Below, in pieces: positions 282-16,235 of a DNA stretch of 34,950 nt. The number at the start of each line of letters is the position of its first letter. Position 1 is the first letter of the stretch. The stretch covers positions 1 through 34,950 of the forward strand of contig CAIWVL010000259.1 in the NCBI GenBank assembly GCA_903916085.1, written 5' to 3'. The notes below the pieces were generated by a model that saw only the letters and a program-made list of their open reading frames with translations, made no database searches and was not told the DNA's origin. This stretch comes from an uncultured Spartobacteria bacterium (GTDB lineage: Bacteria > Verrucomicrobiota > Verrucomicrobiia > Chthoniobacterales > Chthoniobacteraceae). A program made the position numbers and the translations under genes.

Positions 282-1679
282 CTAGTGCGCTGACGTTGGG
301 TGAAACTCCCAAGTGCCGCACACGCCGATGCCGAACCCTTTTTCGCCCATCAAGGTGGAGCGGCGGTTCTGGAGATCTGTGCCTGCTGAATTGTTCCCGT
401 GCCAGTTGAGTGCTGCGGCGAGCTTCCTCGCCTCCTCTTGGGTGTCTGCCTCGAAGTAGTAGACCGCCCCAGCAGGCACCGCGAGATGGGTGGATTTGAA
501 GCCGCCCTTCTCTCGCTCTGGATCGCTGTTACTGGCAGTGGCGTATCCAGTGACAATGCTCGGCTTGGATACTGTGGCTGCGACAAGCCGGGCTGCAATG
601 CGTTTGCCCGGTGGACGCCCGATGCGTTTGGCCTTCAATCGGCCCGGCCCGTCGAGCAGGAGCACTGAGCCAGCGGCCACCTGTTCCCCTTCAAACGTTT
701 GATCCTGCGCGGCAATCCAGTTTGGGAGCCATCCGCCAGGGTGCGGATTAATTTTTTCTCCAGGGGAAGATTCTTTGGCGCAAATCTCCGGCCAGATGGC
801 GGGCGACAACAGGATCCACTTCACGCGGGTGCCGTGGATTTCCGCTCCGAGGGGCAGGGGCAGCTTAGATTTTGGGGAGTCGAGCAACTCTGCAGTGCAG
901 ATACGTTGCTGGCCGCCAATAACGATCTGGTGCTGGCCTTGGTCTAGGAGTTGATGAATTAAATCCGTTTTGTGGATGGGCTGGCCACGCCCTTTATCTA
1001 AGGCGCTCGCAAATACGCCAAGCCGTACGTTGTCTCGGAGGCGGAGGTAGTGCGCCGAGTAGAACTGCCCTTTGACCACCGAGTTTGTCTCAGGAGAAAG
1101 CTCAATGCCGCAGGTATGTTCGGTGTCTGAAAAGTCGTTATCTCTTTGAAACTTTTGGTCCGGTATGGAGGTGCCTTTGAGATAGGCATTCCAAGCGGCC
1201 TCGTTCCACCAACCGGGAGCGGTTGATTTGCTCGGGGGTTCCACACTTGCGACGGCGTACTTCAGCGGAAAAGGCAGGCTGGATGGGCTCTCCATTTGAA
1301 GTGGAAAGAGCGTCACTTTAGCATCGGCTGGGTGCCCTTTTTCGGGATCCTCGTCATGGGGACGGCCAGCGTCTGCGGGGCGGGGAAAGTACCAGTTCCC
1401 TTGGGCGTCTACAGGGAAGGGGCCGGCGCTCACGAGTGATCCGAACTTGCGCCCACTGCGCTGGCGGTTTTCCTCGGAATAATCCCGCACACTTGATCCG
1501 CGTCCCGGCGCGTGGAGATGCACATCTGCAAGCTCAGCGCGATGCAGGGCGGCATGGAGGGCATAGCTAATGATGTTGGGCAGGGGCCAGGCGGCGCCAT
1601 GGCCGGAGGCCGACCCTCCCATGGGACGGCCGTCTCGGAAAAATAGAACGTCTGTGGGGCGTAATAGGATGGTATTCAT
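282..1679 (-). CDS. cmr3: Cmr3, type III-B CRISPR RAMP protein
   Basis: A 465-residue protein beginning MNTILLRPTDVLFFRDGRP, then MGGSASGHGAAWPLPNIIS and a helix with LHAALH. The LFFRDGRP...WPLP pattern near the N-terminus is diagnostic of Cmr3. In known Cmr complexes this Cas5-like subunit pairs with Cas10/Cmr2 and anchors the 5' tag of the crRNA. Glycine-rich stretches such as GGFKSTHLAVPAG and the C-terminal GEKGFGIGVCG fit RAMP-type loops. Length is typical or slightly long for the family. The start lies 3 bp after the cas10 stop codon, so the two genes are likely translationally coupled. The order cas10-cmr3-cmr4 supports the assignment. Confidence 0.93.
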   Translation of the reverse strand: MNTILLRPTDVLFFRDGRPMGGSASGHGAAWPLPNIISYALHAALHRAELADVHLHAPGRGSSVRDYSEENRQRSGRKFGSLVSAGPFPVDAQGNWYFPRPADAGRPHDEDPEKGHPADAKVTLFPLQMESPSSLPFPLKYAVASVEPPSKSTAPGWWNEAAWNAYLKGTSIPDQKFQRDNDFSDTEHTCGIELSPETNSVVKGQFYSAHYLRLRDNVRLGVFASALDKGRGQPIHKTDLIHQLLDQGQHQIVIGGQQRICTAELLDSPKSKLPLPLGAEIHGTRVKWILLSPAIWPEICAKESSPGEKINPHPGGWLPNWIAAQDQTFEGEQVAAGSVLLLDGPGRLKAKRIGRPPGKRIAARLVAATVSKPSIVTGYATASNSDPEREKGGFKSTHLAVPAGAVYYFEADTQEEARKLAAALNWHGNNSAGTDLQNRRSTLMGEKGFGIGVCGTWEFHPTSAH

Positions 1680-1682
1680 GGG

Positions 1683-4436
1683 CTAGTTGCCTTTCGGCGC
1701 GGGGGGTTCGGGGCTGGTGCGGTGGGCGAAGGCAACCGTTGTGCAGAGACCAATGACTGCGGCTAACAAGGTCTGTGCGGTGGGCGCTAGCGTCCCTGTC
1801 TTAGAAGGCTGAGGAGCGGCAATTTTCCGCAAATATGTAGATAAAATGGGTCCGAGCTCTCTCTCGTTTTCCTCGGCCTTACCTTGCTCAGATTGACGTC
1901 TAATAGAGAAGGCGAACTCCTTCTCGATGAGGCTTATGACGGTTTCGACGGGAATGTCCGCACTCTGCTTCGAAAGGCCGCTGCGGGAGTTCCGATAAGG
2001 CTCAAGTAACTGGCACACACGGTGCGGAAACTTTGCGCTTAAAGCGCCGGAATCAAGGCGTGTGGCTATGGCATTATACAGCACAATTCCACCGCTCTGC
2101 CACTGGCAGCCCCATTCCGTGATTTCACCCGAGCGCTTGAAGATAGAAATGGCAACGGCGGCGCGGTGTAATTGGTTTTTCGCACGCTTTTCTGCCGTTT
2201 GTGCGGCGCGTACCACATCTTGGAGCGGTGCCTTGAAGTGGGCGATCGCGATTCCCACGGAGCAATCTGCGGCTTCTCCGGGCACGGTAAAGGGAATGAG
2301 TTCATTCCGTTCATCTCGGGAGCCATCGCTGAGAAAGCCCGGATTCACCTGAGTGAGGTCGGCGCGTTCCACCGAGCGGCCTTGAAAAGCGTCCCTGAGC
2401 GCTTGGGCGCATTCCAGAGCCTGGTTTGCAGGAAGCATGGCGAGGACATCATCGCCCCCAGCGTAAATGAGTCGGCCATCCCACTTTTCAACAACACGCC
2501 TGGCACAATGCAGCGCGAAGTTTGATAGCGACTCGCTAAATTGAAGGTGGAATCCAGGTGAGAGCGGACGCCGTTTTTGGAGGAAGTCTTTCGCGCCCGG
2601 TTGCGGAGCTTTAAATTCCTTTTGCTCAAAATAAGCCACCGCCCCTCTGCGTTCGCCATGCTCATCCCTGTAGTCAGCGAGTATCCGCTCAAAAGTTGGC
2701 GTGTTTTCACCACTGACCCAGCGTCCGATTTGGTCGCCGTCTAGGGCAAGGATGGCAAAGTGTTTTTTGTCGTTCTCGGGAACGTCATCTGCATCTTCCG
2801 TGGTATCTGCAAAGGGAGTCCCTGCGGCGATACCGTGCGTGTTTGGCATCGGAAATTCTCGGCCATGCTGCGTACGCAGAGCCCATTTCTGGTTGAGGTA
2901 GGCTAGATGCCAGACCCTTTTGACCAGGGTAATTGCGCCGACCGGAGCGGGCTTCTTGAATAGCGTTAGCCATTCTCCCTTGAGGACATGCTCGCAGCGG
3001 CTGTGCCAAGCGTCTCCACCAGCCACTGTTTCCTCGCGGCCCGTGAGAGCATCTTTTTCGTTACTGGAGGTGGCGCTCCATCCGCCTGAGTGCCAGGCTT
3101 CAAAGGCGCGTGTTTGCCTTACCGCATCTAATTTCCAACTGGCGTGCTGCACGAGTATCGACCACGCGACACCAATGTTATTGAGCTTAGCTTCGCTGGT
3201 ATTATCTGTGTAGTACCGTGAGTCCCGATGGCTCACTGGCATCTGTGTTGTCGCCATCTCGGTTACCCCCTCCACTGCGGAGGCAGCTTGGCGGATAGGC
3301 ATCCCCTCAGGAAATCCTGCGGCCGCAAGTTTCAGAGCTTCGTTGAGCGTGTTTGGCCAAGGCTCTGCTGCCCAGGAAATTTGGAGGAAGCGGTTAACTT
3401 GTCGCTCAAACCGAGGCTCAAGGACGTCTTCTGTGAGCCCCTCCTTTTCGCAGCGCTCCCAGCAAGCTCTCGCGATTGATTCCCATTCATTCTGAATAGC
3501 GTTTGCGACAAGCTTTCCAAGTCGATCTGCTTGTTGCTCGGGAACGATTGCCAAAAATACATTTGGCAGATTTGGAACGAGCAAATGATCTCTATGGCCG
3601 TCTCGATCATCGTAGCCAAATGAGTCCCAGATACTCGTGTCACCGATGGAAACCTTGCTCCAAAGCTCGTCGCGCCAGTGTAGATCAAATAAGGGTTGGC
3701 CGTGTAGATTTGGAAAAACCACGGCGTCTGGCCCGATTTCAGCACTCAATGCCTTCATTCCCGCCGCCATTAGCCACGACAACAGGTAGCTTCCACTCCA
3801 CAGGTCACGCACACTCTTTGCCGCCGCAATAAAGTCCTGCACCGGGCCGAGTTGGAATTTCAGGAAAGCGGGCCGCAAAATTGTGCCGTTGGCTGTCGTC
3901 TCTGTGCAACTGGCCAGCGCGGACACCATCCCCATGTGGTTCCAAATTGTGTGATCGGGAATCCGAGTGTCGGCGGGTAAGAAGGCGAGTCGCCGGTCCT
4001 TGGCGCTGGCTCGAGTTTTCCAAAGCCGCCAGTGGGCGAAGTAGCGGGCTCTCCATTTTTCTGGCTCGGGGAGGTCCCCAAAGTCTGACAACACAGGTTG
4101 AACGGTCTGCGTGACTTCCTCTGCGAGGTTTGCAGTTTTGAATGGCTCGAGCCTTAAAGGTTCGCCACTCAAGGGATGGCGAAAGGTGTTTTGCATTCCG
4201 TCAAATCGACATTTCAACCCAGAGGCTCTTGAACTCGGAAACGGCAGTCGATCTGCTGCTGCTGCGGTGTGGTCCGCAGCTTTTTCGTACTTCTGGATGT
4301 GTTCTTCCGGAATCTCTGCCTGGACGTAAGCGCTTCGAGCAATCTTCCAGTGTTCGGCAATGTCCAGCGCTTTGCTGGGTGGGTCGTGGAGGAAGGCAGC
4401 GAGTTTTTGGATCCAGAAGGAAGAGTCGTTGTGCAT
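1683..4436 (-). CDS. cas10: Cas10/Cmr2, large subunit of the type III-B CRISPR effector, with HD and GGDD motifs
   Basis: A 917-residue protein. Near the N-terminus is an HD motif (FLHDPPSK, His17-Asp18), the usual site of single-stranded DNA cleavage in Cas10. Cmr2-type segments follow: ADHTAAAADR (about 54-63), PADTRIPDH (about 154-162) and FLKFQLGPVQDFI (about 191-203). The Palm domain region carries LALDGDQIGRWVSG (about 563-576) and YAGGDDVLAMLP with GGDD at 660-663. GGDD is the catalytic motif that makes cyclic oligoadenylates from ATP in active Cas10 proteins. Both active sites therefore look intact, so signalling by cyclic oligoadenylate is expected. The gene begins the cas10-cmr3-cmr4 run, with about 350 bp of non-coding DNA separating it from the upstream Lon-like gene. 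Confidence 0.95.
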   Translation of the reverse strand: MHNDSSFWIQKLAAFLHDPPSKALDIAEHWKIARSAYVQAEIPEEHIQKYEKAADHTAAAADRLPFPSSRASGLKCRFDGMQNTFRHPLSGEPLRLEPFKTANLAEEVTQTVQPVLSDFGDLPEPEKWRARYFAHWRLWKTRASAKDRRLAFLPADTRIPDHTIWNHMGMVSALASCTETTANGTILRPAFLKFQLGPVQDFIAAAKSVRDLWSGSYLLSWLMAAGMKALSAEIGPDAVVFPNLHGQPLFDLHWRDELWSKVSIGDTSIWDSFGYDDRDGHRDHLLVPNLPNVFLAIVPEQQADRLGKLVANAIQNEWESIARACWERCEKEGLTEDVLEPRFERQVNRFLQISWAAEPWPNTLNEALKLAAAGFPEGMPIRQAASAVEGVTEMATTQMPVSHRDSRYYTDNTSEAKLNNIGVAWSILVQHASWKLDAVRQTRAFEAWHSGGWSATSSNEKDALTGREETVAGGDAWHSRCEHVLKGEWLTLFKKPAPVGAITLVKRVWHLAYLNQKWALRTQHGREFPMPNTHGIAAGTPFADTTEDADDVPENDKKHFAILALDGDQIGRWVSGENTPTFERILADYRDEHGERRGAVAYFEQKEFKAPQPGAKDFLQKRRPLSPGFHLQFSESLSNFALHCARRVVEKWDGRLIYAGGDDVLAMLPANQALECAQALRDAFQGRSVERADLTQVNPGFLSDGSRDERNELIPFTVPGEAADCSVGIAIAHFKAPLQDVVRAAQTAEKRAKNQLHRAAVAISIFKRSGEITEWGCQWQSGGIVLYNAIATRLDSGALSAKFPHRVCQLLEPYRNSRSGLSKQSADIPVETVISLIEKEFAFSIRRQSEQGKAEENERELGPILSTYLRKIAAPQPSKTGTLAPTAQTLLAAVIGLCTTVAFAHRTSPEPPAPKGN

Positions 4437-4786: not shown

Positions 4787-6799
4787 CTAATACGCAAATG
4801 CGCGTTGCGGATCTACCGAGCGATCGCCCTTAAGCCGGCGCTGCCATTTTGCTAGAAATTCAGGGTCAAATGACCTGGCTGGAATCGCAGCGAAGGCAGC
4901 GGCCAAATCTTGCGCGCTAAAGGGAGTGGCGCGGCCGGCATCGGCGAACAGTTCATTAGCCTGCAAAAGAATACTGGCCCGGATCAGTCGCAATACGGGG
5001 CCGTCTTCTTTTCCAAATAGGGCCGCTGCGGCGTGGAAATCTATCTCCGCCTCGGTGTAGTGCCCAGAAACGGCGTGCAACGTTGCGCGGTATTTCAAAG
5101 AGGTCGCCCGCAGCCAAGCGTCAAAGCCACCCGAGTTTTGGGCAAGCGGCAGTTCTGCATACCCTTGTTCGACAGTCCCGTGCAGTTTCCACAGGCGATA
5201 GGCCGCCAAAAAACGGTGCCTGCGCAGGTATTGCAGACTTACGGGATCCGCCGCATTTAGGGACTGAAGTTCGGCTTCAACGGCGGTCGTTGCAGCCGCC
5301 ATTTTTGCGGGCTCAAACAACGCCACCCAAAGCGCCTGACGAACGGCCGTTTTCGAGTACTCGAAGCGGTGGGCATCCGTGGAACCACAGTTTTTGATGA
5401 GATGCAGGGCGGCTTCAGAGGATTTTGCGAGGTACGCCCGTGCGTCGGCCTGGCAAGGTTCGCCTCCGAGGGCTTTGAAAAGCTTCACTTCCCCGCCCAA
5501 GACTCCGAATAAACTATTCTCTGAACGCAGATAGGATTCTTCAGTCTCAAAAGTGGCCGTATTGAGAGTTTGCAGCAGATCGGTAGCGACAGCCTCAGCC
5601 TCATCCAGACGCATTTGGTCAGAGAGCGACACGATGAAATGGTTCAGCGCACGGAAGCGGTCCAGAGCGCTGTGGCGCCATGAACCGGACTGGATTTCGC
5701 GGAAGTAATCATTCGCGTGGGCAGCATGACCGGTGTGGTTGTCGATTTCCGCCAGCAAAATCAGGGTCCGCAAGTAGGCGGGGCGATCGTGTTTGCCCTG
5801 CGCCTTGAGCCAAGCGTACCACTTCTTAGCGCGTGTCCGGGCAACGTCGTACGGGACTTTTTTGCGCCTGATCTGTACGCCGAGTGTTGCGAGTTGAAGC
5901 ATGATCGACGCCTCGGAAAGCGGGCCGAGGCCGTGTTCCTCCATGGCAGCCTCAACATGCCCAAGCGCTTCCGAATGCGGCATGCCAGTGGGCAGCGCCA
6001 AAACACCAGGCACCGCCTCTTCCTGAGCGACTGTGAGCCACAGCTTGGCACCCATCCGAGTGGCCAAGGCGCTCTTCTGTTCGAGGCTCTCCACCGGATT
6101 CAAGCGGCCCTCGGAAATCGCCCCTGTGGCGAGCCAATCCAGCGCACGTACTTCCCGGTTTCGAAAATGAGCGGCGATCCAGACGGGCAGGGCAAAGCTC
6201 CCTCCCACAAAAGGGCTCGAAGCTCCCGGCTGGTGGCACCTGAGATTGAGCCGCCAGCCGCCATTGCCTAATGCCGCCCAAAGTCCTGCCGCGCAGGCTT
6301 CCCAGCCATCCACACGCCGCCCTGCTGCGTCCAGGATCCGGTTCTCCTCGGTTTGGCTCCCTTGTTCCAACTGGAACGGGACGGGAAACGCGTTCCCCGC
6401 CGCGTCGACCACGGGAATAATGCCGTGCGCATTTTTGAAGGCGCGGACACGTTCTTCAAAAAACTGGATGGAGTCCGTTCCATCCTGAACGATTCGCGAC
6501 GCTAACTTCAGCGTTGTTTCAAAAAACGTCCGATCGAACGTGCGAGCATCGTTTTTATGGAACCAACTCACTGCGCCAGATGTTCCGGCATTGCCGTGTT
6601 TCAGGGCTTCCCTCACGCAGGGTGGGCAATTGTCTTGGGTTAGCCATACGCGAAAGAGCAGTTCCCCTTCCACGCATGCTTGAACGTGCGGAAATAAAGC
6701 GTGTCCGCCTAGAAGCAACGCAGCGAGGTCGTCCTCCACAAGGAAGCAGACGTCTGAGGGATGCGCCTGGATTTGGCGTAAACGGGCACGCGGTGACAT
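4787..6799 (-). CDS. Lon-type (S16-like) Ser/Lys protease domain fused to a TPR-like helical domain; CRISPR-associated CalpL-like candidate
   Basis: A 670-residue protein with no signal peptide or membrane segment. Residues about 185-265 match the Lon proteolytic fold. SPFVGGSFALP places a candidate nucleophile at Ser201. It is followed by WLATGAIS, GRLNPVESLEQKSALATRMG with a candidate Lys242, and AKLWLTV. This parallels the Lon pattern of TGE(V), G.V.PVGGL..K..AA...G. The Ser-Lys spacing of 41 equals, from memory, that reported for CalpL (Ser152/Lys193). No AAA+ ATPase domain is present. Residues about 315-640 are alanine- and leucine-rich paired helices in TPR style, with no SAVED or CARF signature that I can see. 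The start codon is 9 bp after the 309-aa gene, so the two are co-transcribed. Proteolysis of the neighbouring 309-aa protein is inferred from the CalpL/CalpT precedent. Confidence 0.68.
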   Translation of the reverse strand: MSPRARLRQIQAHPSDVCFLVEDDLAALLLGGHALFPHVQACVEGELLFRVWLTQDNCPPCVREALKHGNAGTSGAVSWFHKNDARTFDRTFFETTLKLASRIVQDGTDSIQFFEERVRAFKNAHGIIPVVDAAGNAFPVPFQLEQGSQTEENRILDAAGRRVDGWEACAAGLWAALGNGGWRLNLRCHQPGASSPFVGGSFALPVWIAAHFRNREVRALDWLATGAISEGRLNPVESLEQKSALATRMGAKLWLTVAQEEAVPGVLALPTGMPHSEALGHVEAAMEEHGLGPLSEASIMLQLATLGVQIRRKKVPYDVARTRAKKWYAWLKAQGKHDRPAYLRTLILLAEIDNHTGHAAHANDYFREIQSGSWRHSALDRFRALNHFIVSLSDQMRLDEAEAVATDLLQTLNTATFETEESYLRSENSLFGVLGGEVKLFKALGGEPCQADARAYLAKSSEAALHLIKNCGSTDAHRFEYSKTAVRQALWVALFEPAKMAAATTAVEAELQSLNAADPVSLQYLRRHRFLAAYRLWKLHGTVEQGYAELPLAQNSGGFDAWLRATSLKYRATLHAVSGHYTEAEIDFHAAAALFGKEDGPVLRLIRASILLQANELFADAGRATPFSAQDLAAAFAAIPARSFDPEFLAKWQRRLKGDRSVDPQRAFAY

Positions 6800-6808
6800 T
6801 GCTGCGCT

Positions 6809-7738
6809 TTATTCTGAAAAAGACCTGAGGTTCAGGTGGATACCGTGGAGTTCCACGACGAGTTGGCCCTTAAATAAGTGTCCGGGAATGACAAGGGAAT
6901 GGCCTTTTATCTCGCCCAGCACTTCCCCTTGAGCGCCTAAGACTCGAGCGCCCGACAGCGCCTCGGACTGGTGCCCGGTCGTGTCGGAAACATTGAGTGT
7001 CACTGGTAAATCCGCCTTTCCCACGGCGTCGACATCAATAATGAGTCCGAGGGATTCGACTTCTAATGCTTGATGGAACCGTGGTGCGCCTTCGCTCGCC
7101 ATCTTTTGGGCTAAGGCCTCCTGCCAAGCAGAGAAGAAATCCACCGGAATCACGTTAGCTGCAATAGCGGGGACGTCTTCATCACATTGGATGTGGTTGA
7201 GTTCGGCGACCAGTTCTCTGTGGAAAGCGAGGCGCGAGTCGAGTGCGTCCAGCGCGGGAATGCCAGTGACAACATCCTCGGGACAATGCCCTTCAGCGCT
7301 ATCCACCCAGTCAGCGAATTGGATGAGTTGCTGCGCCTCGGTCTCTGGGAGTCGGGTCACAAACTCGTCTAAATGGTGTGCAGTGGTAGAGACCACGTGC
7401 CCCATGGCAAAGGCGGGCGTGAACCCAAGGAGTTGCGTTGGGAGGAGGGCGTCCGTATCAAGCGCCATAACGGCGTCGGAGAGCATGGGGGCGCACCGGT
7501 AATGGACGTGGCCCTGAACGGTGGTGCGTTCTAGGATGAGAACCCAGTGAGAGGTTTGCTCGTCCGGGGGGAGGGTGGATGACGGGCGAGTGGTCCAGAT
7601 TTCGCCGGGTTGGGCGAAGAGAGGAGTGCGCTCGGGTTCGCTAAAGCAGGTGAGTTGGGACTCGCGAGGCGCGATGCTGGCTGCAAAGGCCGAGATGTCG
7701 GCGAGGGAAAGGTTCCCATGAATGGACTCGGTAGACAT
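6809..7738 (-). CDS. Possible MazF-fold protein, candidate CalpT-like sigma inhibitor and protease substrate
   Basis: A 309-residue soluble protein, about 33 kDa, not recognised with certainty. Residues about 43-125 read like a MazF/PemK-type barrel. There is an initial PGEIW motif (44-48), a hydrophobic strand HWVLILE (64-70), then VHYRCAPMLSDAVMALDTDA and a conserved-looking LLGFTPAFA segment. The C-terminal third is predicted beta-rich (LEVESLGLIIDVDAVG; ARVLGAQGEVLGEIKG). In the CalpL system the protease cleaves a MazF homologue, CalpT, of similar size, releasing a sigma factor. The gene here sits between a sigma-like and a Lon-like gene. An AAGGAA ribosome-binding site lies about 10 bases before the ATG. 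It could instead be an unrelated adaptor. The fold call rests on pattern only. Confidence 0.4.
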   Translation of the reverse strand: MSTESIHGNLSLADISAFAASIAPRESQLTCFSEPERTPLFAQPGEIWTTRPSSTLPPDEQTSHWVLILERTTVQGHVHYRCAPMLSDAVMALDTDALLPTQLLGFTPAFAMGHVVSTTAHHLDEFVTRLPETEAQQLIQFADWVDSAEGHCPEDVVTGIPALDALDSRLAFHRELVAELNHIQCDEDVPAIAANVIPVDFFSAWQEALAQKMASEGAPRFHQALEVESLGLIIDVDAVGKADLPVTLNVSDTTGHQSEALSGARVLGAQGEVLGEIKGHSLVIPGHLFKGQLVVELHGIHLNLRSFSE

Positions 7739-7762
7739 AAGGTTGTGTTCCTTTCCGAAGGG

Positions 7763-8971
7763 TCAGTTGCTGCCTTTTTCCGGGGAATGTTTCTTAGTGT
7801 GTGGCTTTTTCGCACCTGCTTTCTTAGCGGGCGACTTGGGTTTCTCTGAGACCTCGAGGCAATGATTTTTGCAAAAGTCTGCTGCCCCGTAGATTGCTTC
7901 GTGGAACAAACCAGCTCTCATGTGGTCGAGAGCAACGCTTTCCGTAGCATCTAAATGGAGGAGGCTTTTCCTGTATTCATCCATGGAGGATACATCCCGT
8001 TCTGACTGCACGCGGCCGCCTAGATTTGGCAGATAAGTGCGGAGCGTTTTTTCAATCAGCTGCACTTTTTCGTATACAGTCGAGGTCGCACCAAAGTCCT
8101 CCAACCGCACCTCGCTCATTTCCAGTTTTTTGGGGATGTAGTAATTCGTGAAAATCAAGCAAAGGCCTTTTTCGCAAAGCACTTCCCCGATCTTCTGGGC
8201 GCGCTCAAGAATCTGTTGGCGCAGGATAATCGCTCTCAGACTGAGTGTTTGAGTGTCAGCCGCCTCGGCGATCACGCGACGCTCCGAGCCGTTATTTCCC
8301 GGGGTGGGCGTCTTCTCAGAAGCCAGTACGATGTCTGGAGGCACGGGGCTTTTTTGATAGAAGGCTTTCTGAATAAGGCGCATGAAAACGGGCTGCTTCA
8401 TGTCGCTCAAAAATTTCAGGATGAACTCTTTGGCGAGGGTTGGGCTGACGAGCTTTCTGCCTGCATGGGCGGGAGGCGGGAGTGACTCCATCCCCTCCAG
8501 GACTTGCTGGAAATGGTCGTCATCCGTCTCCAAAACTTCGGCCTCTCGTGCGGAAGCGGGTGCCCACCAGATTTCTTCGCTGATCGTGAGTGGCTCAGGT
8601 TTGGTTTGGCGGAAGGCGGTGCCCTGTTTTTCCAAGGACAGCAGAGCGGTGCGCGCGATATCAAAAATCTCGCTAGAAGCTTGGTCTTTGCGCATTAGAC
8701 AGCTCACCATTTCTTTTCTGGCGAGGCTGCGCGAGCTGATGGTGAGTTTTTTACCTTCTTTGATGCGAGTGAGGAAGGCGTGAGCCAGTTCATCTGCGGT
8801 CATGTGCACGTTCTGTCCCCAGCCACTGATGACCTGGTTGGCGAGTTTGAAGACGTCTTCCCACCAGGCTATAAACTCCTCCCGCGCTTGAGTTTGGTTG
8901 GTGCCTTTTAGGTGCCCAAAATCAGTGCGAGTGATCCACTCGCGAACCATTGCATTCCAGTTGATGTTCAT
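7763..8971 (-). CDS. Divergent sigma-70/ECF-like protein with long insert and Lys-rich tail; CalpS-like candidate
   Basis: A 402-residue protein. Residues about 30-95 resemble sigma region 2: EEFIAWWEDVFKLANQVIS, then TADELAHAFLTRI, then SRSLARKEMVSCLMR. This is the layout of 'W..vy.lA...', 'DL.qe.f.rl' and 'l......l.D'. Residues about 258-306 resemble a region 4 helix-turn-helix: LCLIFTNYYIPKKLEMSEVR, LEDFGATSTVYEKVQLIEK and TLRTYLPNLG. The intervening segment of about 160 residues is unusually long, and the protein is about twice the usual ECF length. The tail from about residue 376 is Lys/Pro-rich (KPKSPAKKAGAKKPHTKK), like histone-H1-type DNA-binding tails. It is the first gene of the sigma/MazF-like/Lon-like operon. 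The sigma assignment is tentative; another helical regulator is possible. Confidence 0.42.
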   Translation of the reverse strand: MNINWNAMVREWITRTDFGHLKGTNQTQAREEFIAWWEDVFKLANQVISGWGQNVHMTADELAHAFLTRIKEGKKLTISSRSLARKEMVSCLMRKDQASSEIFDIARTALLSLEKQGTAFRQTKPEPLTISEEIWWAPASAREAEVLETDDDHFQQVLEGMESLPPPAHAGRKLVSPTLAKEFILKFLSDMKQPVFMRLIQKAFYQKSPVPPDIVLASEKTPTPGNNGSERRVIAEAADTQTLSLRAIILRQQILERAQKIGEVLCEKGLCLIFTNYYIPKKLEMSEVRLEDFGATSTVYEKVQLIEKTLRTYLPNLGGRVQSERDVSSMDEYRKSLLHLDATESVALDHMRAGLFHEAIYGAADFCKNHCLEVSEKPKSPAKKAGAKKPHTKKHSPEKGSN

Positions 8972-9232: not shown

Positions 9233-12200
9233 TTATTGAGTGTCTCTGGTTCCTGAAAACTGCGGCCCGCCCGCGCCGACGTAGCCATTGCTCGCGCCAT
9301 TCGGATCAGGCGTGACCCAAAATGCGAAGAGTTGCCCATGACTGATATGAAAGCGGAAGCGCACCGGCTTGCCAGAGAACGCGGATAAGTCCGGGCGGTC
9401 GACCCATTCGAGGCGCTGTTTGGTGGTGTCGCTGCTGAGCGGTTTAGAGGTGGCCAGGACCGTGTCGTCGGCACCGAGCGCTTCGACACGCAGCTCGCCC
9501 TCTTTCGCCGCGACATTTACGAAGAGATGCCGTCCGCTGAACTTCACGGGGCGCGTGGTGAGGGTGCCGGGCTTTTCGAGCGCGTCCATCGAGGCGAATC
9601 CATCGCGGCGCAACGTCGCGAGGCCGATGCTAGCCCCGGAATACATCCCGCGAGTGCCGTTTGGTGCTGTGCCGGAGTAGGCGCAGTAGGGAAAGACGAG
9701 TTCGTCCTCTAGCACGACGCACACGCCGGTGGTGGTGTGGACGTACCCGCGATCCCAGTCACCCTCCTTGCGAGTCGAGGCGATAAAGGCGCGGCGATCC
9801 GGCCGATCCCAGTGGAACCCATCGCGGCTGAAGCCGAGTTTGAGGTCCGTGATCTTCGGGAACTTACCTTCGTCACAGATTTTGTTGTCGGGGCCAAGGT
9901 GGATCTGAAACATGCCGAGCATCACGCTCTCATAGGCAACGGCGCTGAGGCTGTAGAGCTGTGCGGGTACGCCGATTTGCGGATCAGGTTCGTCGAGACG
10001 GTCGGCGTTCGCCCAGAAAACCGACTTCGCCCAGTCCGCCCCCGCGAGGAAGTCACGCGACTCGTGATACCAGCGATTTCGCCCATGTTTGCCGCCCTGC
10101 TTGATGCTGTAGCACCAGACGTTGCGGAACGGATTGTGGAAAATGGAGCAGTAATCCCCGGCTGCACCCGTGAGTGCAGGCTCCGACCACGTCCGACCGT
10201 CGGCGGAGGTTTGCAACGAGTGTCCGGCCTTACCGCGATCTGTGAGGAACTTAAGGCGCGCGTCTTTCGACGCGAGGTCGAGCCAGACGCTGTTGTCGCC
10301 GCCCGCCTCACGGCCTTTGGCGAGCAGCAGATTGTCTTCGAGGATACCGAGATTGGGACGCGTCCATGTTTTCAAATCCGTACTCGTCGCCAAGGCTAAC
10401 GGTCCACGCCAACCTGCGGTATAGAACATCTTGAAGTGCTTCTCTGTCGGATCGTAGAACACGCCGCCATGCCCTAGGTAGGTCACGCCATCCTGACCCT
10501 TATCTCCGCTACTAGTCTCCTGGGTGGAAGATGCCTTCGACTCGTGCTTTGTCTCAGGTTTGAAGACTGGATTGCCCTCAAACTTTTTCGCTGTGTGAAA
10601 CGTGCGCTTCAGCGTCGTGTTCTCAATGAGAAAGTTGTCCACGAAAAGCTGGCGTCCGACATCAATGGGGATCGTCTTTGGCAGTCGCTTCAAATAAGCG
10701 ACAGGCATCGGCTCATTCGAGTCGGGATCCAAGAACCGTGGTGGCCAAACATCCGGCAGCTCGATGCCGTTATAGAGTTTCTCCGGCTTGGGACCGGTGG
10801 CCTTGTTCGCGAGTTGGAGCAGTTTCGCGTCCGTAGAGACGAGCTTGCCCGCAAGCACGTCTTCTTCGCGGAATTTCGCCAGCAGGATTTCGGCATCCGT
10901 GTGGCGGTTCCAATCATAGAGGATGTGGATAAGGCCGTCCGGTGACTCGAAGCCATCTGGATACGACACCGCGTTGCGTTCATCGAGTAGCAGGCCGCCT
11001 TTCCATGTTTGTCCGTCGTCCTCGGAGAGATACGCAGAGAGGTGTGAGCGCCTTTGCAGGCGTTCGGTGGGTGGGCCGTTCTTCACCAGCAGGATGCGCC
11101 CCGATTGCAGGCGACGTAGAAAGAACCGCGCGTTGATGTTTTGCACGGTTGCAGCCTGGCGCGGCTCACTCCATGTCCTCCCTTGGTCGCTGGAGAAACT
11201 CTCGAACGGCTGGCCACTCGTGCGGGCCAGCATCCACAGGCGGCCATCACGCAGCTCGATGGTCATGTGCTCGTCGTACTGCCAATCCGGAAACTGGAGG
11301 CTCCCGCGCTCCTTCCACGTCACCCCTTCATCCGTGGAGGCAAACACGCGTGCTGTCTTCTTCTGCCAATCTGAGACCGGCAGCAGCCAGTCGCCGTTCT
11401 TGAGCACCGTGGGTTTATTCAGCGTGCACCCGTCCGCAAACTGCACTGGCTCGGACCACACAGGCTCTGTCGCATCGGGGTCATCGCAACGGATGAACCA
11501 GTTTGTAATGCGCTTCTGCGGATCGCCGAGTTGCTGATCAAAGAACAGCCACAGGCGTCCCTTGGGATCGGTCCACAAATTTCCGACCAATGCACCGCTC
11601 AGTTTCTGCGCGCGTTCCGTTCGGGCACCAACGGCCAGACGCGGCTTCGACCACCGCGTCCCCTGATCATCGCTTGTTGCTAACAGAAAGTAGCCGTCCT
11701 CCTTATCTCCAGTGCCCGTCCAACAGCCCCAAAGACGTCCTTTTGCGGTCCGATCCATTCCAATGATCATGGCTCCGGGCCGTGCCTCATCTTGAAATTC
11801 CCCTCCTGGGTTCAAAATTAAAACCGGCGCCCATGGATTGGGCTCCCGCACCTGCGCGCCGTCCGAAAGCACCAACAGCACTGTCTTCTTGAACTTCAGC
11901 CGCTCACCAGCTTGGACGGATTTGCGATACAGGTTGAACCGGTTTACTTCGCCCGGGAAAAGCTGGATTTGGGGAGCGTCTACTTTTGCGAAGCCCGCTT
12001 GTTGGAGTGCTGTTTCTTGGCTGGATGAATTCAGCGGCGCCACGGGCGTGAGGGCAAAAAGCGTGCCTGGCTTTGTAACTTCCACGTCCGTCTTTTCGAT
12101 GCTTGTGCGTAAGAACGGCAGGTCGCGCAAAAGCTCTGGGAGTTCTCTGAAGACGTAGTTCCGGTCAGAGAAAATCTTCACGCCGGGCCTCGCCACATCG

Positions 12201-12292
12201 AGCGCGACGGTTGCCTCCTTGTTGTCAGCGGCTTCTGAGAGGCCGGCCAAACTGACAAAAAGGGACAGGCAGACGAGCAGGGGGAGTCTCAT
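9233..12292 (-). CDS. Secreted sialidase-like protein with two fused beta-propeller domains
   Basis: A 1019-residue protein starting MRLPLLVCLSLFVSLAGLSEA, a clear Sec signal peptide. The ATG at 12290-12292 puts the basic residue directly before the hydrophobic core, so I prefer it to the GTG at 12310. Residues about 145-480 hold four Asp-boxes of the BNR/sialidase type: SDDQGTRW (207), STDEGVTW (319), SSDQGRTW (367) and SEDDGQTW (423). After about residue 540 a second propeller-like domain starts (IPIDVGRQLFVDNFLIENTT), with repeats such as GGVFYDPTEKHFKMFYTAGW and a later SADGRTWSEP. Such proteins act on glycans outside the cytoplasm. The substrate is unknown, and I did not identify a full sialidase Arg triad. 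It appears to be a single-gene unit. Confidence 0.8.
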   Translation of the reverse strand: MRLPLLVCLSLFVSLAGLSEAADNKEATVALDVARPGVKIFSDRNYVFRELPELLRDLPFLRTSIEKTDVEVTKPGTLFALTPVAPLNSSSQETALQQAGFAKVDAPQIQLFPGEVNRFNLYRKSVQAGERLKFKKTVLLVLSDGAQVREPNPWAPVLILNPGGEFQDEARPGAMIIGMDRTAKGRLWGCWTGTGDKEDGYFLLATSDDQGTRWSKPRLAVGARTERAQKLSGALVGNLWTDPKGRLWLFFDQQLGDPQKRITNWFIRCDDPDATEPVWSEPVQFADGCTLNKPTVLKNGDWLLPVSDWQKKTARVFASTDEGVTWKERGSLQFPDWQYDEHMTIELRDGRLWMLARTSGQPFESFSSDQGRTWSEPRQAATVQNINARFFLRRLQSGRILLVKNGPPTERLQRRSHLSAYLSEDDGQTWKGGLLLDERNAVSYPDGFESPDGLIHILYDWNRHTDAEILLAKFREEDVLAGKLVSTDAKLLQLANKATGPKPEKLYNGIELPDVWPPRFLDPDSNEPMPVAYLKRLPKTIPIDVGRQLFVDNFLIENTTLKRTFHTAKKFEGNPVFKPETKHESKASSTQETSSGDKGQDGVTYLGHGGVFYDPTEKHFKMFYTAGWRGPLALATSTDLKTWTRPNLGILEDNLLLAKGREAGGDNSVWLDLASKDARLKFLTDRGKAGHSLQTSADGRTWSEPALTGAAGDYCSIFHNPFRNVWCYSIKQGGKHGRNRWYHESRDFLAGADWAKSVFWANADRLDEPDPQIGVPAQLYSLSAVAYESVMLGMFQIHLGPDNKICDEGKFPKITDLKLGFSRDGFHWDRPDRRAFIASTRKEGDWDRGYVHTTTGVCVVLEDELVFPYCAYSGTAPNGTRGMYSGASIGLATLRRDGFASMDALEKPGTLTTRPVKFSGRHLFVNVAAKEGELRVEALGADDTVLATSKPLSSDTTKQRLEWVDRPDLSAFSGKPVRFRFHISHGQLFAFWVTPDPNGASNGYVGAGGPQFSGTRDTQ

Positions 12293-12369
12293 GGGGTGCA
12301 CTCTAACCACGCCATCTAAAAGCCTGCAATAGGGTTGGCTTCAGAGAGGTGGTTAGATGAAGCGAACTG

Positions 12370-12909: not shown

Positions 12910-14772
12910 TCATGTTCTCAGTACGGCGATTTTCGCCTGGAATACGGCTCTGTTGGTGTATTCCTGCGCATACTCATTTTGGAACTTAGCAAACTCATTT
13001 GCATACGACGATTGCAGTCGAGCCACGTTTGCTGTTATCTGCCTGCCGCGTGTCATAAGCCTAGCCACCTCTGCTTGGACCAGCTCACTCCACTTATTTC
13101 TTTCTGCGTCTGGAACCCTATTAAACGGTGGGAAGCGGAACGAACGCTCGCATTCATCTCTCCAAGCAGTAATGCGGTCTCTAAGAGCTTCTCCAAAGGA
13201 GGGAAGGGACTCAAGTCTTGCTTGATGTACGTCTGCCGCCGTTACAACGCCATGTGCCGCTAATGTGGCTTTCCGACTATTGCCAATTCCGCGAATGCTT
13301 GCTTCGTCAATTTTGTAATTCCTCAGATGCGTTTGTAAGGCTTGTTCACGTTTGAGCGCATGTAGTTTTTCAAGCGCACGCACGTTAACGCCTGACTTAT
13401 TCCTGAGCGCTTCGACAAGGTCTGGCGCGTCCTCCAAGAGTTGCTTTGCCTCGGCCTCATATCGCGAAAATAGAACGAACGCCTGCGAACGCAGCCAGTT
13501 CAAACGATCTTCTGCAATTTTCAGTTGGCTTTGAATTTCGGCGATTTGTTTGGCCACAAAGCGCTCTCGCATTCCAAACAATTGGAGATTGCCCAGCCAG
13601 CCGCCGGGTTTTTGTCCAGCCGGAAGCGCGTTAGCCACTGCTGCAGATAAGACGGCCTGCGGCGGCGCTGATAGTTGCCGCGCTTCCAGCCTTAAGTCGC
13701 TAAGTGCATCGGCCAGATCTAAGCCGTCCTGCGAGGTTGGCAATCCCACTTGGGGCGGCGAGGGGGAAGGAATGCCTTGAAATAAGTCAATGTGGGCAGT
13801 GCGCAGGACTTTGCACCAAGGGCACTGGAGGGCGCCGCTCCAGTAAATGTGGGCGGGGAGCGCGCTGCACCTTTTTAAGCTGGAGGCTAGGTTGCGCAGT
13901 TCCTCCACCCATTCGCTTGCGGTGGGCCGGGCTGAGGCCGACGCTGCGCGAAACGCACGCAAAAACAGGAGGCAGATCGCTGGCGGCAGCGATTCCAGCG
14001 GCGGTGCCCCGGGTGGAGGCTCCAGTAGGCGCACTGGTGGCGTGGGATCGAAGGCGAAAGCATGCCGCTTGATGGCCTCATCTGGGCTCAATTGCGTGTT
14101 CCCAACAGGGCGTCCAGCGAACGGATAGCGACCGGCAAAAAGCAGGAGGAAAATAAGCTGTGCGAGCCCAAACAAATCGTGATTTTGAGTGCGCATCAGG
14201 CCCTGCATGGAGATTCCCTGTAATTCAGGGGGCGTCCAAATGGGCGTGCCTAAGTCGCTCGTGAACACACGTCCGTTGTGTGAGATTTGAAAACTATCGC
14301 AGTCAATGAAGTTCAGTCTGCCATCAGGCAGCACCTTGATGTTCTGCTCGTTCACATCACCCACCACGACTCCATGGGCGTGCAGATTCTCAAATGCTAC
14401 CGCTAGATTTCGCGCTGCAGCGATCAGAAACTCAAATGTGGCATCGCCAAAATGAACCTGGCGCCCCTGCGGATTGTATAGCTCGTGAATGTTATGGCCC
14501 CCGACGAACGGCATGAACGCCGCATGGGCGTTTGAGTCGCCCTCCCGCGTAAATCCCAGACTCACAGGCAGTGCGGCGTGTCCACGAATGGCATTGGGCA
14601 GCGAACGCAAGGCGCGCAGTTTGTCCTGTTTGGCGGTCGTGAGCGGAATGGTGTGATAGATTTTGACGCAAAAATTTGGGGCTTCTACCACGCGGTGCAC
14701 CACGCCCTCGCCACCTGCGGCGATCTTTTCGCCGACGGTCCACGCCTTGCCAGATTCGTCAAAAATTGGCAT
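12910..14772 (-). CDS. YegI-like protein kinase with C-terminal helix-hairpin-helix region
   Basis: A 620-residue protein. The N-terminal 290 residues form a eukaryotic-like kinase domain. It has a glycine loop KIAAGGEGVVHRV (17-27), an ATP-site Lys in FCVKIYH (Lys37), a catalytic loop VVVGDVNEQNIKVLPDG with Asp139, a DFG equivalent FIDCDSF (Asp157), and GTPIWTPPELQG as the APE-like segment. The HRD and DFG motifs are altered (VGD and DCD), as I recall for the YegI group. A CPWC knuckle follows at about 315-318. The region from about 400 is coiled helices, then SIRGIGNSRKATLAAHGV, a helix-hairpin-helix motif. It overlaps the phosphatase gene by 14 bp and ends the three-gene operon. It presumably phosphorylates Ser/Thr in partners reset by the phosphatase. 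Length is close to E. coli YegI. Confidence 0.82.
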   Translation of the reverse strand: MPIFDESGKAWTVGEKIAAGGEGVVHRVVEAPNFCVKIYHTIPLTTAKQDKLRALRSLPNAIRGHAALPVSLGFTREGDSNAHAAFMPFVGGHNIHELYNPQGRQVHFGDATFEFLIAAARNLAVAFENLHAHGVVVGDVNEQNIKVLPDGRLNFIDCDSFQISHNGRVFTSDLGTPIWTPPELQGISMQGLMRTQNHDLFGLAQLIFLLLFAGRYPFAGRPVGNTQLSPDEAIKRHAFAFDPTPPVRLLEPPPGAPPLESLPPAICLLFLRAFRAASASARPTASEWVEELRNLASSLKRCSALPAHIYWSGALQCPWCKVLRTAHIDLFQGIPSPSPPQVGLPTSQDGLDLADALSDLRLEARQLSAPPQAVLSAAVANALPAGQKPGGWLGNLQLFGMRERFVAKQIAEIQSQLKIAEDRLNWLRSQAFVLFSRYEAEAKQLLEDAPDLVEALRNKSGVNVRALEKLHALKREQALQTHLRNYKIDEASIRGIGNSRKATLAAHGVVTAADVHQARLESLPSFGEALRDRITAWRDECERSFRFPPFNRVPDAERNKWSELVQAEVARLMTRGRQITANVARLQSSYANEFAKFQNEYAQEYTNRAVFQAKIAVLRT

Positions 14773-15571
14773 GGGAGTGCGTCACTAATGCAATGGATTT
14801 GTCGTCGTCTGTACGTGAACAGACTTGTTCAGAGCTCAGGAAGTCTTGCAACTGCTCTCGAAACTCCTGTTCTCCTGCCGCGAGTGCTTTACCTGCCGGG
14901 AGAAAAAATCCTGCCGCTGGAAGTTGCGTGCGGAATTCGAGAAGGAGGCGCTCCAATCCGTCTGTAAATCCAGCCAGTAGGGTGGGCGCAGTTTTGAGAT
15001 GCACCATCTGGAGGGCGTCTTCTGCTGCAAACGAGGTCGCGAAGGTGGTTTGGCCGGCGAACTCTCCAGAAGTTGGCCAAGTCAGGCAGCCGAGAATGCC
15101 TTCGCCGAGTACGCCATTAACTTGGGCAACCCAAGCGCCATCGCCGACCTGGGCTACGAGCGTATGCGTAGGCGTGAGGACGGCCCCTAGGAGCGTTGCG
15201 GATAACTCTGAGGGCTCAGTGCCAAGTTCCCGGGCCTCGCTAACAACTTCTTCCCGGATGGATCGCAGGAGCCCGATCATCTCCTCGCGCTCAAACTCGG
15301 CCAGCAGGCGAGCGGGATCGGGATTTTGGTCCAGAAGCACACGAAAGGTGTCCAACCACTGCCGAACTACGATTTTCGCTCCCTTATCGGCGTGGGCCGC
15401 CGAGCCTGCGCCATCAGAGAGGGCGAGGAGGAGGATTTCCTGCTCGGGGCCCAGTGTTTCTGCGCCGGAGGCATCCTGGCAAGGCAGGCCACTTTGATGG
15501 TGACTCGTGCCTATGGCCGACGTACACGCGTGGTTCCACCGGATTTTAGGTTTCGATCGTAATCCAGGCAT
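14759..15571 (-). CDS. PP2C-family Ser/Thr phosphatase, YegK-like
   Basis: A 270-residue cytoplasmic protein with the metal-binding motifs of PPM/PP2C phosphatases. These are GTSHHQSGLPCQDAS (Asp33), LALSDGAGSAAHADKGA (Asp53), QVGDGAWVAQ (Asp144) and GFTDGLERLL (Asp204). The DGAGSA version of the usual DGMGG motif is typical of the group paired with vWA and kinase genes, such as E. coli YegK. It overlaps the vWA gene upstream by 26 bp and the kinase gene downstream by 14 bp, strong evidence for coordinated translation and a shared pathway. It probably reverses phosphorylation by the neighbouring kinase. The target proteins are unknown. Confidence 0.88.
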   Translation of the reverse strand: MPGLRSKPKIRWNHACTSAIGTSHHQSGLPCQDASGAETLGPEQEILLLALSDGAGSAAHADKGAKIVVRQWLDTFRVLLDQNPDPARLLAEFEREEMIGLLRSIREEVVSEARELGTEPSELSATLLGAVLTPTHTLVAQVGDGAWVAQVNGVLGEGILGCLTWPTSGEFAGQTTFATSFAAEDALQMVHLKTAPTLLAGFTDGLERLLLEFRTQLPAAGFFLPAGKALAAGEQEFREQLQDFLSSEQVCSRTDDDKSIALVTHSHANF

Positions 15572-16235
15572 TAGGGCTAGGCAGTTGTAGTTTGGTGCCA
15601 GGGCTTGAGGTTGACACGCCTTTGAGTGAGGAGGAAAGCCAGCGGAACATTTCTCCGAAATGAATTCCCTTAAGTTTTACTGAAGGTCGCTGCGGAGGGC
15701 ACAACGAGTCGAGCATACGCTGGTTGGCGTCGTTGACTGCTACGCCAAAGAAGAGCAGGCGCTTGGCTGCTTCTCCCTCGTGGACCGCTTTGATTGCGCG
15801 TGTCCAGGACTCAGAGTCGGCATCGGTGGGTTCGCCGTCTGTGATTAAGAGCATCCAAGGCCGGTAGTATTGAAGGCCAGCTTGGCGGTATTCGGCTTTT
15901 CGAGCTTCCAGAAGTTGGCAGCCGCGTAGCACTGCTTCACCCATCGGTGTGGGGCCATCTGCGGAAAAGTGCGGGGCGATGAAGGCGCTGGGCGGGGTGA
16001 AGTCGCAGGCGATTTGCACGGTGGTGCCGAAGGTAACCACGGCGAGTTCCACCCGCTTGCTGGCGAGACTGTCTTGGCTGAGCTCGTCCATGAGTAGTTG
16101 GACGCCCAGGTTGAGTTCCTCGATGGGGGCACCGCTCATGGAACTGGAGGTGTCCAGTAGCAGCACACACGGGCACCGTGGTTCAGGGTTTGTCGCTAGG
16201 CTAAGAGAGGAGTGGAAGGGAGTTTGTTCGGACAT
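15546..16235 (-). CDS. von Willebrand factor A domain protein, YegL/TerY-like
   Basis: A 229-residue protein that is almost entirely one vWA domain. The metal-ion-dependent adhesion site is complete: LLLDTSSSMSG (Asp28, Ser30, Ser32), DGPTPMGEA (Thr96) and LLITDGEPTDAD (Asp133). There is no signal peptide or membrane segment, so it acts in the cytoplasm, probably as a scaffold binding protein partners. It starts the vWA-phosphatase-kinase operon. Such 'TerY-P' triads have been described by comparative genomics next to stress and conflict systems. The 26-bp overlap with the phosphatase gene ties the products together. What signal it senses cannot be read from the sequence. Confidence 0.88.
   Translation of the reverse strand: MSEQTPFHSSLSLATNPEPRCPCVLLLDTSSSMSGAPIEELNLGVQLLMDELSQDSLASKRVELAVVTFGTTVQIACDFTPPSAFIAPHFSADGPTPMGEAVLRGCQLLEARKAEYRQAGLQYYRPWMLLITDGEPTDADSESWTRAIKAVHEGEAAKRLLFFGVAVNDANQRMLDSLCPPQRPSVKLKGIHFGEMFRWLSSSLKGVSTSSPGTKLQLPSPNAWITIET

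Follow-up and report, generated by a model that had tools for sequence, protein, structure and literature searches.

The window analyzed here, one whole contig of 34,950 nucleotides (CAIWVL010000259.1; G000:C259) from an uncultured Spartobacteria bacterium of the Verrucomicrobiota (assembly GCA_903916085.1), carries a three-gene minus-strand operon beside the cas10-cmr3-cmr4 genes of a type III-B CRISPR locus. The genes, designated P1, P2, and P3 in order of transcription, encode a putative regulator, a predicted MazF-fold protein, and a Lon-type protease with a TPR-like C-terminal region, respectively (Table 1). Their open reading frames (ORFs) lie where an earlier reading of this DNA, made from the sequence alone (the sequence-only reading), had placed them, with gaps of 24 bp between P1 and P2 and 9 bp between P2 and P3; a further 350 bp separate P3 from cas10, whose product contains both an HD-type motif (LHDPP) and a GGDD cyclase motif. 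The same gene set is kept in other genomes, which rules out a chance arrangement of ORFs. The sequence-only reading had likened the trio to CalpL/CalpT/CalpS, respectively a Lon-SAVED protease of type III systems, its anti-sigma substrate, and an extracytoplasmic function (ECF) sigma factor (PMC11417357, PMC12751052).

P3 received no name from Pfam, NCBIfam, or PADLOC. Profile comparisons identify it as a Lon-family Ser/Lys protease with a TPR-like region, and proteolysis is predicted. The catalytic pair proposed in the sequence-only reading, Ser201 and Lys242, holds across the family: the serine is invariant in all 18 aligned P3 sequences, and the lysine is present in 17 of 17 readable sequences, in some offset by one column. 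With a P3 profile built from 14 relatives, a PDB search recovered Lon proteases (E = 0.005), whose catalytic Ser and Lys fell in register with those of P3; both residues were likewise aligned in an hhalign comparison with Escherichia coli Lon (P = 1.8e-4), as against P = 0.064 for the related non-proteolytic ComM domain. The P3 profile also matched TPR proteins of the PDB behind the protease domain (profile positions 317-436; E = 0.0009-0.024). This TPR assignment is less firm than the Lon assignment; the window P3 has no Pfam TPR match, and a direct hhalign comparison with one TPR protein was not significant. Neither SAVED nor CARF was found in P3 with Pfam, and PADLOC matches to these domains were weak (E ~0.01) and confined to residues 196-253 of the Lon core. 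Because a TPR-like region stands where SAVED would be, direct activation of the window P3 by cyclic oligoadenylate is not indicated. A search for SAVED-Lon proteins across 190 genomes of the phylum returned no match; control genomes were silent as well, so that this search does not show absence.

The MazF-like barrel suspected in the middle protein is borne out by structure prediction. AlphaFold inputs for P1 and P2 comprised 3-4 sequences each, and the P2 model is of moderate quality (predicted local distance difference test, pLDDT, 61.7). Residues 37-150 of this model matched MazF structures (VIA Z 11.5 over 110 residues, root-mean-square deviation 3.0; Foldseek probability 1.0), and an hhalign comparison of the P2 family (18 members) with PemK proteins of the same order gave P = 4.5e-5. 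The catalytic Arg of the MazF RP motif and the catalytic Thr are missing in 17 of 17 aligned P2 sequences, which makes an RNase role unlikely. P2 is probably a non-catalytic MazF-fold protein, which we propose as a CalpT-like substrate or inhibitor.

Resemblance of P1 to sigma factor regions 2 and 4, as tentatively suggested in the sequence-only reading, could not be confirmed. Searches of Pfam, NCBIfam, PADLOC, and the PDB gave nothing above noise, and the reading of P1 as a canonical sigma factor was set aside. The AlphaFold model, from a 3-row alignment, is helical and poor (pLDDT 53); its best structural matches (Z ≤5.4) are Cmr5-like helical bundles and are not interpretable. Comparisons by hhalign with sigma-70 and with the genome's own sigma factors were not significant (P = 0.11-0.2). 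The best sigma-70 match sits on the region 4 helix-turn-helix, at approximately P1 residues 273-315; reversed controls gave P = 0.38-0.75 versus 0.11, those of a first trial were similar to the match, and 2 of 60 column shuffles equaled its score. Genes in the P1 slot elsewhere scored P = 0.0023 against sigma regions 2-4 (L053) and P = 0.017 against region 4 (L028/L040), with neither score reached by any of 60 column shuffles; these proteins have no detectable kinship with the window P1. A sigma factor identity of P1 is weakly suggested by these comparisons.

Hidden Markov model (HMM) searches over genomes of the phylum, which are samples rather than a full census, located P3 relatives at 18 places beyond the window (19 loci in all); three weak matches (G649, G632, G560) were left out of this count. 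An even sample of the phylum contained P3 in 5 of 289 genomes. All related genomes are draft assemblies, with several short contigs and some assemblies incomplete or slightly contaminated, and genes in the related loci were called simply as the longest ORFs. P2 adjoins P3 at 18 of the 19 places; the one without it is a 4.1-kb contig. Ahead of P2, the P1 slot is occupied at 17 of the 19; eight of these genes, the window included, are homologous to the window P1, and the corresponding family (A7) comprises seven trio relatives together with three Lon-CARF loci described below. Several loci have a small extra gene, P0 (~140-210 aa), ahead of P1, whose product is weakly PemK-like (hhalign P = 0.0013); P0 is missing from the window. 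No relatives were found on plasmids or in viral contigs, and a scan of genome contigs recovered only three already known loci. In G267 (L026), a 4.1-kb contig has a patatin ORF that overlaps an incomplete P3 frame; this probably reflects a frameshift and was not used as evidence.

CRISPR effector genes accompany 3 of the 19 Lon-TPR loci: the window (III-B), G297 (III-C), and G203 (cas13b). The G297 set lies inside a III-C operon in the order cas6-P0-P1-P2-P3-DESG-cmr1-cmr6-cas10c-cmr5-cmr3, with genes that overlap or nearly so, and GGDD is absent from its Cas10. The G203 set follows cas13b and cas1 (cas13b-cas1-P2-P3) on one strand with small gaps; the Cas13b (PADLOC 2.3e-28) has two HEPN motifs, RNYFSH and RNAIFH. 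Cas13b is not known to make cyclic oligoadenylate; together with the III-C Cas10 lacking GGDD, this suggests that at least these relatives would be activated independently of that messenger, if CRISPR triggers them. The P3 tree pairs G297 with G298 (100/100) and G203 with G438/G452 (99/98), and the position of the window is unsure; the scatter of the three CRISPR loci indicates that CRISPR linkage probably arose more than once. Given that only these three loci lie beside CRISPR genes, the set appears to be a general conflict-system cassette that CRISPR systems adopted on more than one occasion. DESG-motif proteins, DUF3800-like by motif only, occur at the G298 and G452 loci. A STAND-type ATPase adjoins P3 in G124, G196, and G526 and is fused to Lon in G353 and G624; this fusion, seen twice, suggests that the sensor can sit directly on Lon. 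In this protease-STAND architecture, Lon and a STAND/NACHT-type ATPase share one polypeptide, at L029:10253-13582 and at L053:3315-9293, the former with TPR repeats.

Searching with P1 brought up three more loci, which lack Lon-TPR (L109, L110, L111); HMM matches there identify P1 (E = 1e-51 to 1e-29) and P2 (E = 9e-26 to 5e-21) relatives. At each, the gene after the P1-P2 pair encodes a protein that combines a Lon-like Ser/Lys region with CARF at its C terminus. The CARF_Card1 match clears the Pfam threshold in L111 (6.2e-6), with weaker matches in L109 and L110; PADLOC CARF matches were obtained for all three proteins, including CARF_LON in L109 (2.3e-5). Type III-D cas7 genes lie directly upstream in L109 and L111 with little or no gap, and L110 is a short contig. 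The use of the same P1-P2 pair with both CARF-bearing and TPR-like Lon proteins suggests a relay with an interchangeable protease at its input and a fixed P2-P1 output, and is the main reason for reading the trio in this way.

With modest confidence, we favor a reading in which P1-P2-P3 form a proteolytic signaling relay, with a partner-activated P3 cutting P2 to free or alter the output, and with Cmr as the most likely trigger in the window. An invader-sensing partner would switch on P3, whose TPR-like tail would dock proteins; in the window this partner would most likely be the type III-B Cmr complex upon binding of target RNA. The active P3 would then cut P2, the proposed non-catalytic holder of P1, so that P1 would be released or P2 changed, and the resulting alteration of transcription or of another cellular process would constitute the immune arm. 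We infer the cleavage of P2 by P3, the holding of P1 by P2, the action of P1 on transcription, and the role of Cmr, rather than of a kinase/PP2C/vWA triad encoded nearby, as trigger.

Several observations weigh against this relay. No sigma fold or DNA-binding domain was recognized in P1, and sequence comparison detects no kinship to P1 for the P1-slot gene in approximately half of the loci. The 350 bp ahead of cas10 allow separate transcription of P3 and cas10; they contain one terminator-like site, no more than expected from shuffled sequence. Most Lon-TPR loci are not adjacent to CRISPR genes, and the triad is a serious alternative as the true partner. The trio could then be a general defense regulator that merely shares an island with Cmr, with the triad (12910-16235) as its real partner and P1 possibly controlling neighboring defense genes. 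The triad is encoded 4 kb upstream of the window trio on the same strand, kinase-PP2C-vWA genes stand directly behind P3 in G132 (L012), and kinase and PP2C genes closely precede the G203 cas13b operon; within the DNA examined, no CRISPR effector gene was recognized beside the set at 16 of the 19 Lon-TPR loci. However, in G297 and G203 the set either lies within a CRISPR effector operon or adjoins one without interruption, type III-D genes run directly into P1-P2 with Lon-CARF, and a 3-kb sialidase-like gene lies between trio and triad in the window; we regard the general regulator as rather unlikely.

Activation of P3 in the manner of CalpL, by cyclic oligoadenylate from the adjacent Cas10 acting on an unrecognized sensor region, strikes us as very improbable: GGDD is kept in the window Cas10, and a sensor can be recognized in the Lon-CARF form of the cassette, but the window P3 has no CARF or SAVED match outside its Lon core, the region behind that core matches TPR proteins, and one relative stands beside a GGDD-less III-C Cas10 and another beside Cas13b, which is not known to make such a messenger. 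Nor do we think it probable that P2 is a toxin-like effector, an active MazF-type RNase freed by the protease to stop growth, with P1 as its antitoxin-like partner. The MazF fold itself and the weakly PemK-like P0 ahead of P1 in several loci are in its favor, as is an early CRISPR-T reading of the same kind (PMC9704534); however, every aligned P2 has lost the MazF Arg and Thr, the window has no P0, and later work made CalpT an anti-sigma factor (PMC11417357).

Like CalpL/T/S, the trio combines a Lon-family protease with a ~33-kDa MazF-fold middle protein, a possible regulator as third member, and a neighboring type III-B locus whose Cas10 has GGDD. It differs in that P3 is TPR-like and lacks SAVED, that P1 (402 aa) has no proven sigma fold (CalpS is an ECF sigma factor), and that the trio relatives are mostly outside CRISPR loci, with one of them adjoining Cas13b and another a III-C Cas10 that lacks the cyclase motif. 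The claim of a CalpS/T/L-type module in the sequence-only reading is supported for composition and logic, with P1-P2 standing before Lon-CARF proteins and twice doing so in III-D operons, and is not supported for the sigma factor or for a link to SAVED and cyclic tetra-adenylate (cA4). A survey suggested in the same reading, of the trio's co-occurrence with type III loci, found repeated type III linkage and, for most of the Lon-TPR relatives, a location away from CRISPR.

The type III-E system CASP comprises Cas7-11 with Csx29 (TPR-CHAT), Csx30, and CASP-sigma (PMC10028731) and is, like CalpL/T/S, a precedent for the proposed relay. The trio resembles it in that a single protein apparently unites a TPR-like region with a protease and is linked to a candidate substrate and to a possible regulator, and activation without a cyclic nucleotide is conceivable; however, P3 is a Lon Ser/Lys protease rather than a CHAT cysteine protease, and its neighbors are cas10, cmr3, and cmr4 rather than Cas7-11. 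No sign of kinship between the substrates was found. The Lon-CARF type III-D loci (L109, L111) share the gene order of the trio, with homologs of P1 and P2 ahead of a Lon-type protease; this protease carries CARF instead of a TPR-like region, and its Lon part is only remotely similar to that of P3 (hhalign P = 0.0028); CARF-Lon effectors have been predicted previously (PMC9704534). The STAND/peptidase conflict systems likewise couple peptidases to NTPase or vWA components with variable partners (Kaur et al., 2020; PMC7159879). The trio was rejected as a member of that study's vWA-MoxR/peptidase systems, as Lon and MazF are unmatched in its main text. Since SAVED and CHAT were tested for and not found, membership of the trio in Calp or CASP is not supported; our best reading is of a sensor-swappable Lon relay that would be functionally like CalpL/T/S and Csx29.

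More tentatively, unrelated RNA-targeting CRISPR systems may have acquired this cassette on several occasions (III-B, III-C without the cyclase motif, III-D with CARF, and VI-B with Cas13b), as may STAND immune ATPases, with P3 activated by protein contact via its TPR-like region and without a cyclic nucleotide. Two protease relays are known from type III CRISPR systems, Calp and CASP, which are seemingly unrelated; the cassette combines features of both, its protease carries either CARF or a TPR-like region, and one genome has the set directly behind cas13b. Full-text searches of the open literature, a coverage that excludes most subscription papers and bioRxiv preprints, turned up neither a Lon-TPR/MazF-fold cassette nor a Lon protease beside Cas13b. 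If this proposal is true, a Cas13 system would for the first time be seen to have an RNA-guided protease arm, and protease signaling would be a portable module common to many bacterial alarms. It would also offer new RNA-triggered proteases, and Lon switching without an ATPase or cyclic nucleotide would be testable in small proteins.

Table 1. Features of the window, with P0 genes of related loci
Feature	Position	Strand	Basis
P1, putative regulator (402 aa)	7763..8971	-	ORF call; predicted all-helical
P2, MazF-fold protein with C-terminal beta domain (309 aa)	6809..7738	-	AlphaFold, hhalign
MazF/PemK-like barrel of P2, residues 37-150	7289..7630	-	structure match
P3, Lon-type Ser/Lys protease with TPR-like C-terminal region (670 aa)	4787..6799	-	
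Lon protease core of P3, residues ~185-260, Ser201 and Lys242	6020..6247	-	alignment, hhalign, PDB profile matches
TPR-like helical region of P3, residues ~330-670	4790..5812	-	PDB profile matches
cas10/cmr2 (917 aa)	1683..4436	-	Pfam Cmr2_N 4.7e-30 and PADLOC
cmr3 (465 aa)	282..1679	-	Pfam Cas_Cmr3 3.4e-35
cmr4, N-terminal fragment truncated by contig end	1..220	-	sequence reading
Protein kinase gene, TerY-P-like triad member, possible partner	12910..14772	-	Pfam Pkinase 1.2e-7
PP2C phosphatase gene, triad member	14759..15571	-	Pfam PP2C_2 1.9e-37
vWA (TerY-like) gene, triad member	15546..16235	-	Pfam VWA 4.1e-10; PADLOC TerY 5.9e-5
P0 gene of related loci	L028:4701-5336, L027:12001-12519, L051:3371-3820, L109:2045-2563, L111:4552-4998, others		

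Simple repeat scans found no CRISPR array in the window. The sialidase/BNR-repeat-like ORF between trio and triad (1025 aa; 9233-12310, minus strand) shows several Asp-box-like SxDxGxTW segments by eye and seems out of place among defense genes.

Additional genes were observed around the relatives. The contig of the G297 III-C operon has at its start, ~15 kb from the operon, a short CRISPR-like repeat array (GTCTCAATCCCCTTGGGGCG...) adjoining the gene for a 977-aa protein that matches reverse transcriptase and PrimPol (PADLOC 1.3e-65 and 5.2e-45; L097:1-3485, G297:C105), and also encodes a LeoA-like dynamin homolog (PADLOC 5.5e-64; L097:5800-7539). Behind cas13b-cas1-P2-P3 of G203 (L011:1-7191, G203:C349) lie genes for an 841-aa weakly TPR-like protein, a 434-aa protein, and PRTase-CE (5.1e-18) and HD (6.6e-14) proteins, possibly a further effector or biosynthetic arm. 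In G298 (L028:9964-18735, G298:C11), P3 is followed by a 712-aa DESG-motif protein and then by proteins of 181, 1443, and 531 aa with weak matches only, to the PADLOC candidate systems PDC-S27 and PDC-M34B; this run of genes may be an undescribed defense operon.

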